A DNA stretch of 64,000 nt from Chryseobacterium gleum (lineage in GTDB: Bacteria; Bacteroidota; Bacteroidia; Flavobacteriales_F; PHOS-HE28). Of the stretch, positions 41,716 through 48,040 are shown one piece after another; position 1 is the stretch's first letter, and every line of letters starts with the position of its first letter. The notes beneath the pieces were generated by a model that saw only the letters and a program-made list of their open reading frames with translations, was not told the DNA's origin and did not search any database. The translations under genes were made by a program, and so were the position numbers. The stretch lies in contig CAMCAZ010000014.1 of NCBI GenBank assembly GCA_945872795.1, positions 1-64,000 on the forward strand, written 5' to 3'.

Positions 41716-43320
41716 TCAGCGCACGAAACGCACCGTGCTCCGCAGGTCCTGCATCCGGAGCTCCACCAGATAGGTGCCCGGGGCCAGACCCTTGATGTCA
41801 TGGTGCAGCACCTGACGGCCCATGGGCACCTTCGCCGCAAGCAGGGTCCGTACGGTGCGGCCACTGCTGTCCAACAGGTTCAGCTCCACCGTGCCGGCAC
41901 GCGGCAGATCAAGGGAGACCATCAACTGTTCGTGGTCCGGTGACAGGCTCACGCCGATCACCTCCTCCTCGGCATCCACTTCCGCGGCGCCCACGTCCGT
42001 GTTGGTGTCGCGGATCAACAGCACCCGGAAGGTCCGCGTAGTGGCATCGCTTTGTGTGCCCGTGTTGATGAAGAAGATGTTCGCTGCGCTGCTCTCGATG
42101 CCGCCCACGATGTGACCCGCCACGACCGTGTCGCCAACGAGCTGGTCGAGATCGATGATGTTGTCGAACACCAACGGAATGCCAGGCATTTGGATGAACT
42201 CCGCACTGGACCCCAGCAGGGCGGGCATGGTGCCGATCGCCGTCTCTGCCACCGCCCCGGATGCGGTGCGCTCCACCTTGCTGATGGTGTTCACGAAGGG
42301 TACGTTCGGATCATCCCACAGTTGGCCGTTCGCATCGAAGTAATACCGCCCGATGCCCCCGAAGAACATGGTGCTCATGCTGTTCGCCGCGCTTGAATAG
42401 GCCGGCAGGTGGGCCGTGTGATACTGGTTGAGGAGCTGCTCGAAGTCCGGCACCACCGTGTATCCTTCAGCGTCAATATCCACGATGTTCAACCAGGGGA
42501 TGTCCGATGCGTACTGGAACACGCCGGAAAAGGCCGTGTATCCATGGGTGCCGTTCGGATAGACCTGCGGAACAAGGTTGTAATCCCGGCGGTGCAGGTT
42601 CACGGTATCCACCGTTTCCACGTAGTCGGTCACGGACAACGCGGTGCCGTCATCGGCAATGCCGAAGCGCCGGATGGCGTTGGTGTACTCCTGGATGAAG
42701 CCGGGCCCGAAGTCGGGACCCTGGGGATTGTACCGGCCGATGAAACGCTGACCGCCGACCAACAGGAACACATCGTCCAACTGGCCCAGATAGCCGCCTG
42801 TGACGGCCATGCGCTGATCGGTGATGAAGCGGAAGTGGGGAGCGATGGGCTGGCCGGTCTTGATGGCCGCGATGGCCCCCGGCACATCAATGGCGCTGAG
42901 CACCGGGTGGGTGATGTGGTCGTTGACCGTGGCGGAGAAGCCGTAGCCGCCCAGCACGTAGAGCATGTCACCCCGTTGTTGGAACTCCATGTTGGTGCTC
43001 TGCAGTTGCTCGAACTGGGCGGTGGGCAGGGTTGAAAGGGCCGCACTCCACACCTGCCCCAACGCAGGGTTCACCACGTAGGCCTGCGTGTTGTTGTCCG
43101 CTGCCAGGAAGGCCGCGAAAGGCTGGCGACGATGCAGGCCGTCCGTCCGTCCTCCCACAAAAAGCCACTCACCTTCGTGCTGCGCCCAGGCATAGGACTG
43201 GATCCCCGGCATGCCCGGTACCGTGATCTCTTCAAGGACCACGCGCCGGTCGCCCAGGTCCTGAGCGTGGCTGGAATGGATCAGGGTCAGCGTGAGCAGT
43301 GCGGAAAGAAGGGTGCGCAT
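41716..43320 (-). CDS. Secreted repeat protein with T9SS-type C-terminal domain
   Basis: A 534-residue protein with signal peptide MRTLLSALLTLTLIHSSHA. The body has Kelch-like elements (MLYVLGGYGFSATVN, VFLLVGGQRFIGRYN, TMFFGGIGRYYFD) that may form a beta-propeller. The last ~80 residues (VELNLLDSSGRTVRTLLA, GTYLVELRMQDLRSTVRFVR) fit the type A sorting domain of the type IX secretion system, so the protein should be exported and attached to the cell surface. The ATG at 43320 is chosen over the track start. It has a 14-bp palindrome about 50 bp upstream. Confidence 0.78.
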   Translation of the reverse strand: MRTLLSALLTLTLIHSSHAQDLGDRRVVLEEITVPGMPGIQSYAWAQHEGEWLFVGGRTDGLHRRQPFAAFLAADNNTQAYVVNPALGQVWSAALSTLPTAQFEQLQSTNMEFQQRGDMLYVLGGYGFSATVNDHITHPVLSAIDVPGAIAAIKTGQPIAPHFRFITDQRMAVTGGYLGQLDDVFLLVGGQRFIGRYNPQGPDFGPGFIQEYTNAIRRFGIADDGTALSVTDYVETVDTVNLHRRDYNLVPQVYPNGTHGYTAFSGVFQYASDIPWLNIVDIDAEGYTVVPDFEQLLNQYHTAHLPAYSSAANSMSTMFFGGIGRYYFDANGQLWDDPNVPFVNTISKVERTASGAVAETAIGTMPALLGSSAEFIQMPGIPLVFDNIIDLDQLVGDTVVAGHIVGGIESSAANIFFINTGTQSDATTRTFRVLLIRDTNTDVGAAEVDAEEEVIGVSLSPDHEQLMVSLDLPRAGTVELNLLDSSGRTVRTLLAAKVPMGRQVLHHDIKGLAPGTYLVELRMQDLRSTVRFVR

Positions 43321-43324
43321 GGGT

Positions 43325-43348
43325 TGGAGTTCTGAAGGCAAAACTCCA
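43325..43348. promoter_or_regulatory. Hairpin immediately before the T9SS gene start
   Basis: TGGAGTT and AACTCCA pair with a 10-nt loop, 4 nt upstream of the ATG (minus strand). It could occlude ribosome binding. Confidence 0.35.
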
Positions 43349-43368
43349 TCACCCCGGTCGCCGACTTG

Positions 43369-43382
43369 GTGACGATCGTCAC
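43369..43382. promoter_or_regulatory. Perfect 14-bp palindrome upstream of the T9SS gene
   Basis: GTGACGATCGTCAC is a perfect inverted repeat, 48 bp before the start of the 41716 gene, a plausible operator. Confidence 0.4.
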
Positions 43383-43400
43383 AGAGCGCTGTCCTCGTGT

Positions 43401-43554
43401 CGCAACCCGTAAGTCGGTTCACTGAAGTTCTGCCACGATTTCGCCTTCATGCAAGGCGGAACATGTACGGCGTAGCGGGCGCTACGACGAAATGTTCCAA
43501 CGCGGCAGGAAGGTGAAAGAGGGGCGGAGATGGTGAAGGAACTTACGGGTTGCG
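43401..43554. repeat. 154-bp long palindromic element after the aldehyde dehydrogenase gene
   Basis: Almost the whole element is an imperfect inverted repeat centred near 43478. Outer arms CGCAACCCGTAAGT and ACTTACGGGTTGCG pair perfectly; inner arms GGAACAT/ATGTTCC and the core CGTAGC-GGGC-GCTACG also pair. It begins 3 nt after the aldehyde dehydrogenase stop codon. It encodes no protein and does not resemble an insertion sequence; a transcription terminator/REP-type hairpin or a miniature element is possible. Confidence 0.8.
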
Positions 43555-43557
43555 GTA

Positions 43558-44949
43558 CTAGCGCAGCACCCAGCGCAATATCCGCTCCTTCCAAGGCGCA
43601 TAAGGCGGGTACTGGATGCCCGGCTCGATCAGCGTGCTGGCGTGCACCAGCGACTTGTGGTGCGAGAAGAGGTCGAAGGTGGCCCGTCCATGATAACTCC
43701 CCATACCACTGTTGCCCACACCCCCCAAGGTGAGCTCCGGGTTGCCGAACTGCAGCATGCAATGATTGATGCATCCACCGCCGAACGGGATCTCTTCGGT
43801 GAAGTAACGCTGCGCCTCGCGGTCGCTGCTGAAGACATAGGTGGCCAAGGGGTGTGAGTTGCGCCGGGTGATCGCGAGCACCTCCTCCCGTTCGGTCCAG
43901 GGGATCACCGGCAATACCGGACCGAAGATCTCCTCCTGCATCGGCGGACCGTCCAGCGGCACATCGGTGAGCACCGTGGGGGCGATGTAGCGTTCCGTCG
44001 CATCATGCGACCCGCCGAAACGGATCTGACCATGGTCCAGATAGCCCTTCACCGTGTTGAAGCGCTTGTCGTTCACCAAGCGACCGAAGTGGGGGCTTTG
44101 TTTCGGGTCCTTGCCGTAGAAGCGTTCCACGTGCTTCGCGGTCGCGGTCAGGAAGCGCTCCATCACATCGCGGTGCACGAGCACATGGTCGGTGGCGATG
44201 CAGGTCTGCCCCGCGTTGAAGTAGCGGCTCCAGGCGATGCGCTGGGCGGCGCGGTCCACATCGGCGCTGCGGTCCACGATAGCGGGGCTCTTGCCACCCA
44301 GCTCCAGTGTGATGGGTGTGAGGTGCGGCGCGGCCAGGGCCATGATCTGTCGGCCCACGGTGGGACTGCCCGTGAAGAAGATGTGGTCGAAGCGGAAGGG
44401 GAGGATGAGTTGCGGACCCACCTCGCGCCCCGGTCCTTGCACGACCTGCACATGCCCGGGTGCGAAGGCCCGCGTGACGATGCGCTCCACCACTGCCGCT
44501 GTTGCGGGTGCTTCGTTGCTGGGTTTCACCACGGCGCAATTCCCGGCGGCGATCGCCCCGACCAAGGGTGTCAGCACCAGTTGCACGGGGTAGTTCCAAG
44601 GGGCGATGATCAGTACCACGCCCAAGGGTTCGGGGCGTAGTTCGCTGCTGGACACCTGCATCACCAACGGGGTGGCCGGTCGCTGCGGTCGCATCCACTC
44701 CTTCAGGTGCTGCAGCGTATGCTCGATCTCGGTATACACCAGGCCGATGTCGCCCAGGTAGGCCTCGAAACGCGGCTTGCGCATGTCCGCATGCATGGCC
44801 GCGATGAGCTCCTCCTCGTGTTCCTTGATGGCCGCGCGAAGAGCCAGCAGGGCTTCGCGCCGTGCCGCATAGGGACGAGTGGCGCCGCTCTCGAAATGGG
44901 TGCGCAGCCGTGCAAGGGCCGTTGGTATGTCGTTCAGGTCCGTTCGCAT
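43558..44949 (-). CDS. Aldehyde dehydrogenase family protein
   Basis: A 463-residue NAD(P)-dependent aldehyde dehydrogenase of the short class 3-like type (no N-terminal extension, C-terminal hydrophobic end). IIAPWNYPVQLVLTPLVGAIAAGN, LELGGKSPAIV with the general base Glu, and NAGQTCIATDHVLV with the catalytic Cys are intact. It oxidises fatty or aromatic aldehydes to acids. The track ORF begins earlier; ATG 44949 (MRTDLNDIP) is 8 nt after the TATCTTGG box. The element at 43401-43554 follows its stop. Confidence 0.93.
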   Translation of the reverse strand: MRTDLNDIPTALARLRTHFESGATRPYAARREALLALRAAIKEHEEELIAAMHADMRKPRFEAYLGDIGLVYTEIEHTLQHLKEWMRPQRPATPLVMQVSSSELRPEPLGVVLIIAPWNYPVQLVLTPLVGAIAAGNCAVVKPSNEAPATAAVVERIVTRAFAPGHVQVVQGPGREVGPQLILPFRFDHIFFTGSPTVGRQIMALAAPHLTPITLELGGKSPAIVDRSADVDRAAQRIAWSRYFNAGQTCIATDHVLVHRDVMERFLTATAKHVERFYGKDPKQSPHFGRLVNDKRFNTVKGYLDHGQIRFGGSHDATERYIAPTVLTDVPLDGPPMQEEIFGPVLPVIPWTEREEVLAITRRNSHPLATYVFSSDREAQRYFTEEIPFGGGCINHCMLQFGNPELTLGGVGNSGMGSYHGRATFDLFSHHKSLVHASTLIEPGIQYPPYAPWKERILRWVLR

Positions 44950-44957
44950 GGAGTGTG

Positions 44958-44965
44958 CCAAGATA
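44958..44965 (-). promoter_or_regulatory. -7 promoter box, aldehyde dehydrogenase gene
   Basis: The minus strand reads TATCTTGG, 8 nt before the ATG. Confidence 0.5.
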
Positions 44966-44980
44966 AAGCCAGCTGATCCC

Positions 44981-45979
44981 TTAGGCTGCCAGCACAAAAT
45001 CCGCCCCCTCCACCAAGCCCCGTGAAGCAAGGAACTCGGCGATCCGATCACCTGTACCGCGCTGGCTGATGAACGAGACGATGAAGGCTTCACCCGCAGG
45101 CGGCAACTGGTCGTGTGGGATGAAGGTGTAGCCCGGAACCTCACGCGGCCTCACATCAGTGAAGGCACCAATAACGATGCCTTCCGCCTCCAGCATTGCG
45201 GCCCTGTTCCTGCATAGCGCGCTGGTACCCGCGATGATCACCGGCCGGCCGTTCAACCTCCGCTTCAGCCACTGCGCCAGCCACTTCACCTTGGTGCTGA
45301 AAAAGGCGTCCACACTGTAGTTGCTGTGCGTGCGGCTCAGGCGATGCGCATGGTCGTTCCACGTGAGCAGTTCCGCAGGCAGCTTCGCGAAGCGCACACC
45401 AGCGTCCATCCAGCGCAACCACAGCTCGTGGTCCTCGGGTAGCGGTCCTGTATCGTAGCCGCCGAATTGCTCCACCAGTTCGCGACGGAACATCACCGTG
45501 GGGTGCGCAAGGGGCGCGTCCACGAATCGCTTCACATAGTGCTCATGCGGGGAAAGGATGTTGTTCTGCCATTCCACGAAGGCCTGCATGCCCCGGCTCT
45601 CTTGCACACTGCTGGCGAAGGCGGTACGCGTGCCCAGCACGCCGATCTCCGGATACGCGTCGAGGGTGGCCACTTGTTCCGCCAGGCGTTCCGGATGACT
45701 GATGTCATCGGCATCCATACGGGCGATATACCCCCCCTCGGCATGAGCCAGCCCGGTGTTCAAGGCGTGGGCGATACCGATGCGTGGCTCGTGCAGCACC
45801 CTGATCCGTGGCTCGTTCCCTGCCCAACGTCGGCCAATGGAAGGGCTTTCGTCAGTACTGGCATTGTCGATCAACACCAGCTCCCGATCATCAAATGACT
45901 GCTCAACAATGCTCGAGATCGCAGCATCCAGCGTGTGTGCGCAATTGCGAAATGGCAACAGGATGGAGACCAAGGCCAT
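44981..45979 (-). CDS. Family 2 glycosyltransferase
   Basis: A 332-residue GT-A glycosyltransferase. SILLPFRNCAHTLDAAISSI opens the chain, the metal-binding DxD is in IARMDADDISHPERL, and LPEDHELWLRWMD is the typical ED motif. A C-terminal extension (about residues 230-332) looks like a Rossmann-like region (PVIIAGTSALCRNRAAML) and is unusual for simple GT2 enzymes. Its product probably belongs to an envelope polysaccharide. It starts 3 nt after the uvrC stop, so it is co-transcribed with a DNA repair gene. Confidence 0.88.
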   Translation of the reverse strand: MALVSILLPFRNCAHTLDAAISSIVEQSFDDRELVLIDNASTDESPSIGRRWAGNEPRIRVLHEPRIGIAHALNTGLAHAEGGYIARMDADDISHPERLAEQVATLDAYPEIGVLGTRTAFASSVQESRGMQAFVEWQNNILSPHEHYVKRFVDAPLAHPTVMFRRELVEQFGGYDTGPLPEDHELWLRWMDAGVRFAKLPAELLTWNDHAHRLSRTHSNYSVDAFFSTKVKWLAQWLKRRLNGRPVIIAGTSALCRNRAAMLEAEGIVIGAFTDVRPREVPGYTFIPHDQLPPAGEAFIVSFISQRGTGDRIAEFLASRGLVEGADFVLAA

Positions 45980-47852: not shown

Positions 47853-48040
47853 TGGACCGCAGAGGACGCGAAGCACGCAGAGGGAATACAAATATCCCGA
47901 GGGGCGGCCATGGTCGGAAGCTGGCTTTCTCCGTGCTTTTTGCGTCCTCCGCCGCGAGAAATGAGCTCATGATAAATGCGAATCCTCTGTCCGTAGACGG
48001 CAGGCATTTCTCCGCGTGCTCCGCGCCCTCTGCGGTTCAG
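47853..48040. repeat. Inverted ~30-bp repeats (ACCGCAGAGG-type)
   Basis: TGGACCGCAGAGGACGCGAA and its continuation at 47853-47882 are mirrored by CTCCGCGTGCTCCGCGCCCT and its continuation at 48010-48039, about 80 percent complementary. A degenerate third copy, TTCTCCGTGCTTTTTGCGTC, lies between them in the same orientation as the right arm. Confidence 0.7.

Follow-up and report, generated by a model that had tools for sequence, protein, structure and literature searches.

Among described systems, those nearest to the palindrome analysed here are RUP of pneumococcus, the Correia/NEMIS elements of Neisseria, YPAL/RU-2 of Yersinia, MITECca01 of Cardinium and the IS630/Tc1-mariner elements. RUP is likewise a short, non-coding MITE with a TA target, and its ends match a resident IS630 element (PMC2229807); it differs in its length of 107 bp and its host, Streptococcus, in having an IS630 partner for its ends where no insertion sequence partner was found for the end type of our element, and in that one core under several unrelated ends has not been reported for it. 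The Correia/NEMIS elements are similar in size (~107-155 bp) and have TA at their ends, and RNase III processing has been proposed for their long stem-loop transcripts, but their end repeats and host phylum are different and the likeness drawn here is one of description only. YPAL/RU-2 is an intergenic palindrome of ~168 bp, known from empty and filled sites and with a possible effect on upstream transcripts; it is without TA termini, contains internal inverted repeats and has duplications that vary from 3 to 26 bp, and membership in that family is ruled out for our element, which has TA termini. MITECca01 comes from the same phylum (Bacteroidota) and is IS-derived, mostly intergenic and present in high copy, but it is 240 bp long, derives from an IS982-family element, is known from a single strain and has no report of a common structured core (PMC9769881). 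The IS630/Tc1-mariner elements share with ours the duplication of TA and, as far as the title of the study by Tenzen & Ohtsubo (1991), cited in PMC2170065, conveys it for IS630, a preference for TA in CTAG. Moreover, one of the end types described below, type b, is common to IS630s of the genus. Unlike these insertion sequences, our element holds no transposase.

In the window, by which we mean the whole 64-kb stretch of DNA that was analysed, the longest inverted repeat is a 154-bp palindrome that a first-pass annotation had placed at 43401-43554. It is present as described there, including the CGTAGC-GGGC-GCTACG core, and it folds as one unbranched hairpin of -84.1 kcal/mol (z = -9.6), a value reached by 0 of 200 dinucleotide shuffles. 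The symmetry claimed across all 154 bp holds in that the palindrome is real, but it is imperfect, the element being ~71% identical to its own reverse complement and interrupted by conserved internal loops. The boundaries were drawn too narrowly. From 24 aligned copies and the statistics of their junctions, the whole miniature element, which we call type a, is 162 bp long and occupies 43397..43558, reading GTGTCGCAACCC...GGGTTGCG(G)TAC on the plus strand, which is the better-folding one; a covariance model matches it at 43394-43561 with 185 bits on the plus strand versus 75 on the minus strand. The aligned copies share CTAGTGT...ACACTAG, with consensus ends CTAGTGTCGCAACCC...GGGTTGCGACACTAG, and the window copy reads CTCGTGT...GGTACTAG. 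Its left terminal inverted repeat, GTGTCGCAACCCGTAAGT (43397..43414, plus strand), covaries between species with the right arm, which reads GTACCGCAACCCGTAAGT on the minus strand (43541..43558; family consensus GTGTCGCAACCCGTAAGT). Between the arms lies a conserved hairpin core (43419..43536, plus strand), common to elements with other ends and delimited by a match to the core model R2, described below, and by covariation; its most conserved part is the apical hairpin CGTAGC-GGGC-GCTACG at 43471..43486 (plus strand). The duplicated target TA flanks the whole, with the right copy at 43559..43560, inside CTAG at 43558-43561, and the left copy at 43395..43396, mutated to TC inside CTCG at 43394-43397, where most other copies read CTAG.

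The relation of the element to the neighbouring gene also had to be revised. The stated distance of 3 nt from the stop codon of the aldehyde dehydrogenase gene to the start of the element is incorrect; that gene (43558..45144; Pfam PF00171, E 4e-96) is encoded on the minus strand, with a TAG stop at 43560-43558 that stands at the insertion junction, composed of the duplicated TA as its first two bases and the last base of the element. A terminator T-run is indeed absent, and the view that the palindrome encodes nothing holds insofar as it has no long ORF of its own. Two mechanical ORFs, 41716-43422 and 43379-43774, extend into it, so that a gene caller could put a false start inside the element. 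Two further features of the window may be recorded here. A CRP/FNR-like palindrome, GTGACGATCGTCAC, lies at 43369-43382, in the interval that separates the element from the ATG of the downstream gene at 43320; similar TGA-N6-TCA sites are found at the same place in several relatives, and the element is inserted just upstream of this palindrome. At 47853-48039 there is an unrelated inverted repeat whose 30-bp arms (CCGCAGAGGACGCGAAGCACGCAGAG...), 87% complementary, stand 127 nt apart; the other loci compared gave no match to this arm pattern.

The suggestion that the palindrome might be a mobile miniature element is borne out by its multiple copies and by relatives whose corresponding sites are empty. 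In the assembly (3.32 Mb, 102 contigs) there are 24 copies that are full or near-full, plus a fragment truncated by a contig end, all 93-99% identical to the window copy; they are dispersed, solitary and in either orientation, and several coincide with contig ends, where repeats that interrupt assembly are expected. A 52-bp derivative in the same genome, at C81:492-543, consists of the outer arms and CTAG only and is an internal deletion of the element. Beside it, positions 1-340 of that contig hold direct repeats of ~120 bp (AAAGACCACGAGCGAAGCGAGAAGGGCTTTCCTTGAAGCC...). Relatives conserve both genes next to the window site, in synteny, and are without ~165 bp there; in one of them (G003) the sequence is continuous and has just one CTA where the aldehyde dehydrogenase stop lies. 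The sites of three other copies (L011, L015 and L022) are likewise empty in syntenic relatives; the absence of the element from relatives at all four loci tested points to recent insertion. The relatives are only ~75% identical, too diverged for the exact duplication to be read from their empty sites, and its length is deduced from junction variation, not from empty sites of the same strain. Searches of the genome and its relatives thus returned a multicopy element with conserved arms rather than a unique sequence. The other proposal of the first-pass annotation, a lineage-specific repeat, also finds support, since by BLAST and pattern search the outer-arm type was found only in this genus; among the plasmids, phages and viral contigs searched there was no match to the element. 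Short, non-coding and multicopy, with terminal inverted repeats, a target duplication and empty sites, the palindrome is almost certainly a MITE.

Junctions of copies in other genomes bear on the mode of insertion. There, the inner G after the left TA (20/21) and the inner C before the right TA (18/21) are near-fixed, whereas the outer bases are variable (C in 14/21, G in 12/21) and the left and right 4-mers are unlike in 19 of the 21 copies, a pattern that fits a duplication of TA and not one of 4 bp. By these sequence comparisons, insertion into C-TA-G with TA duplicated, as in IS630/Tc1-mariner elements, fits the element. In the window's own genome, where the data fit CTAG as the target, nearly every junction reads CTAG at both sides, and those junctions, taken alone, would equally suit a 4-bp CTAG duplication. 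The terminal G and C of the element restore CTAG, together with an amber stop, on either side of the insertion, which accounts for the position directly at a stop codon. A simple coding model, in which a coding ORF must end in the TAG of the flanking CTAG, finds that 12 of 24 copies abut a coding TAG, against 13 of 27 background CTAGs in the window and flanks. About half of CTAGs are therefore amber stops by this measure, and special targeting of stop codons is rejected. CTAG is depleted nearly 20-fold in the window, with 12 occurrences where base composition predicts 221. Two convergent genes at L015 each terminate in a CTAG of their own, and the copies showed no evident bias in their orientation to the adjoining gene. 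The rarity of CTAG, its frequent use as an amber stop and its restoration upon insertion would offer a simple general reason for finding elements at stop codons.

The search for a transposase partner gave different results for the different end types. Type b ends (TACCATTT-type) correspond to those of IS630 insertion sequences from congeneric genomes; an element of G032 and an IS630 of G027 are identical at 32 of 33 terminal nucleotides, and the complete IS630 of G013 has type b ends, which match each other at 24 of 29 positions. None of the IS630 elements examined was found to contain the hairpin core. For type a, an end-pattern search of 45 genus genomes gave no transposase with GTGTSGYAACCC ends; it returned palindromic elements and isolated, chance-like sites; none of those inspected bounded a transposase element, and they were discarded as autonomous partners. 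The genus IS630s with readable ends have ends different from type a, and that of the window's own genome (C15) has TACTGAGCCGGTG ends; membership among the IS630/Tc1-mariner-mobilised elements is therefore not claimed, and we say only that the element behaves like one moved by IS630. With no type a partner found, we infer IS630-type mobilisation from the target site, and for the type a end a transposase of the IS630/Tc1-mariner type is probable. In type c, the GAGCC ends and the TNA-like flanks may be reminiscent of the IS5/IS1031 group; a search for an autonomous partner of this end type (TTAGAGCCTGTT) found no pairs 0.5-2.2 kb apart in the loci compared.

Two other modes of movement have to be weighed against these data. 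Some other DDE transposase, IS481- or IS5-like, might move the MITE and duplicate CTAG as 4 bp, which would explain the CTAG on both sides of nearly all junctions in the window's genome; moreover, once CTAG is set aside the element ends in TGT...ACA, presumably similar to the ends of IS481. The unlike 4-mers and the retained inner G and C in other genomes speak against this, and the sole IS481-profile match in the genome (NF033577) is sub-threshold, looks IS3-like with two ORFs, has no matching ends and was rejected as a source, so that we regard a 4-bp duplication as unlikely. Movement as single-stranded DNA, in the manner of a REP/RAYT-type or attC-type repeat, would suit a long, imperfect hairpin in which one strand is favoured and unpaired bases are conserved. 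Yet the target duplication and the long terminal inverted repeats, one type of which is common to IS630 elements, speak against it. REP/RAYT is rejected on size and target duplication, 162 bp far exceeding a REP unit, and attC-like core sites are absent from the copies, which are solitary; this mode of movement is highly improbable.

The type a element is one member of a wider family. BLAST finds it in 8 of 35 genus genomes, the window's own included, and in 0 of 23 genomes of other genera, the named relatives being uncultured Flavobacteriales and Bacteroidetes MAGs. A covariance model built on type a (R1; 62 pairs, 19 with double changes) has matches in 24 of 45 genus genomes and in two genomes of another family, and many of these have ends unrelated to type a. 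The further end types are b (TACCATTTCGCAATA), c (TTAGAGCCTGTTTGGGATCTCTT), d (CTAGTGGTTCAATTC) and e (TTAGTGTACCGATTAC); the last two keep TAGTG and, judged by that motif, may be diverged forms of type a. Types a, b and c all occur in the window's own genome. The core model R2, made from 47 sequences, adds eight genomes in three other families, one of them in another class, and its matches beyond the genus show new ends, e.g. TACGAATTACATT, TACTTCACGCGGTCAC and AGAGTCTGTTTAAG. The model searches covered more than 40 genomes with strict filters, and the genome counts are lower bounds. At least three unrelated terminal repeats thus enclose a hairpin core of ~118 nt, which is present in most of the species of the genus, in other families and in another class of the phylum. 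Sequence-only profiles of one end type match the cores of other types, on the same strand only, with E values of 2e-10 for b to c (the best), 1e-9 for c to b and 6e-8 for b to a, the signal from a to b or c being weak (~1e-3). As far as tested, the core is truly common to the end types. A search of the literature, mainly open-access, with core strings and family terms found nothing matching this element, and a core under unrelated ends is absent from the descriptions in the literature searched.

Several single loci of the family may be noted. At L265, in the window's own genome (G000:C20), a type c element (849-1015) and a type b core (1038-1153; b profile E 2e-30) lie side by side, ~20 bp apart. 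In G390 there is a pair of copies without an evident transposase between them. Near a type c element at L238 (G019:C24), positions 1732-1776 match the Acido-Lenti-1 RNA just above the gathering score, and a second, weaker match lies at 1904-1948.

In the core alignment, 94.5% of cells are paired, against 74.2% in shuffled and 37-53% in slid alignments; covariation is 0.62 versus 0.23 shuffled, and 18 of 19 core pairs show compensatory double changes. The shuffles do not remove relatedness and the slid control keeps it, and the structure tested was itself predicted from the alignment, which favours it over its slid versions. Of 58 elements, 57 fold more stably on the strand corresponding to that of the window copy than on the complementary one (-87.5 vs -72.1 for the window copy itself). 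The z-scores of the two strands are alike (-9.6 and -9.2) and the shuffled means also differ, so that the preference is partly an effect of composition. Juxtapositions of G.T outnumber those of A.C by 114:41 in type a and 110:64 in the core when pairs predicted from either strand are counted; folding one strand gave a biased 100:13, and the union count is the fairer one. On these predicted structures, the excess suggests that selection acts on a single strand, as RNA or ssDNA, and we put the chances that the core is conserved for single-strand folding at about even.

Two explanations would account for these patterns differently. Palindromes can undergo arm-to-arm correction during replication, and compensatory changes could come from such DNA template switching in a quasi-palindrome rather than from selection; that process would erase internal loops, however, and here the loops stay imperfect and are conserved in place across end types, and one strand shows a skew of mismatches towards G.T. 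Template switching seems to us improbable as the source of the covariation. The element might also be a host RNA element, acting as terminator, mRNA stabiliser or small RNA, which spread because of its function and whose mobility is incidental. The one better-folding strand, the excess of G.U over A.C, the strong compensatory change in the core and the frequent location at gene 3′ ends are all in keeping with this, but copies occur in both orientations relative to the adjoining gene and without a T-run, their placement at stops is that of the CTAG background, and Rfam gave no match above the gathering score inside any element. We consider this account rather unlikely.

The reading we prefer is that of a MITE that was very likely moved in trans, most likely by a transposase of the IS630/Tc1-mariner type, by insertion at the TA in CTAG, and would be harmless at gene ends. 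With the transposase acting in trans, the 162-bp DNA would enter the TA of CTAG, which would be duplicated; its terminal G and C would restore CTAG at both junctions, and an amber stop spanning the site would survive. Insertions at gene ends would be harmless and therefore persist. The core itself would be an exchangeable module that has acquired ends matching different transposases, kept because one strand folds when single-stranded, most likely as RNA in read-through transcripts, in which it would form a stable stem-loop. That ends were exchanged between transposase families as a mode of evolution is a tentative part of this scheme. Equally tentative is the larger proposal of a phylum-wide mobile hairpin, whose core, selected as a single strand and probably as RNA, would have exchanged its ends repeatedly and been moved by several transposase families, as cargo with a function of its own and not a mere deletion derivative of an insertion sequence. 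Bacterial MITEs are usually seen as crippled remnants of one insertion sequence; here the core outlives its ends. Its occurrence under unrelated ends across many species suggests a function, either for the host, in RNA stability, termination or insulation, or for the spread of the element itself, and dozens of natural variants are available for testing what the core does.
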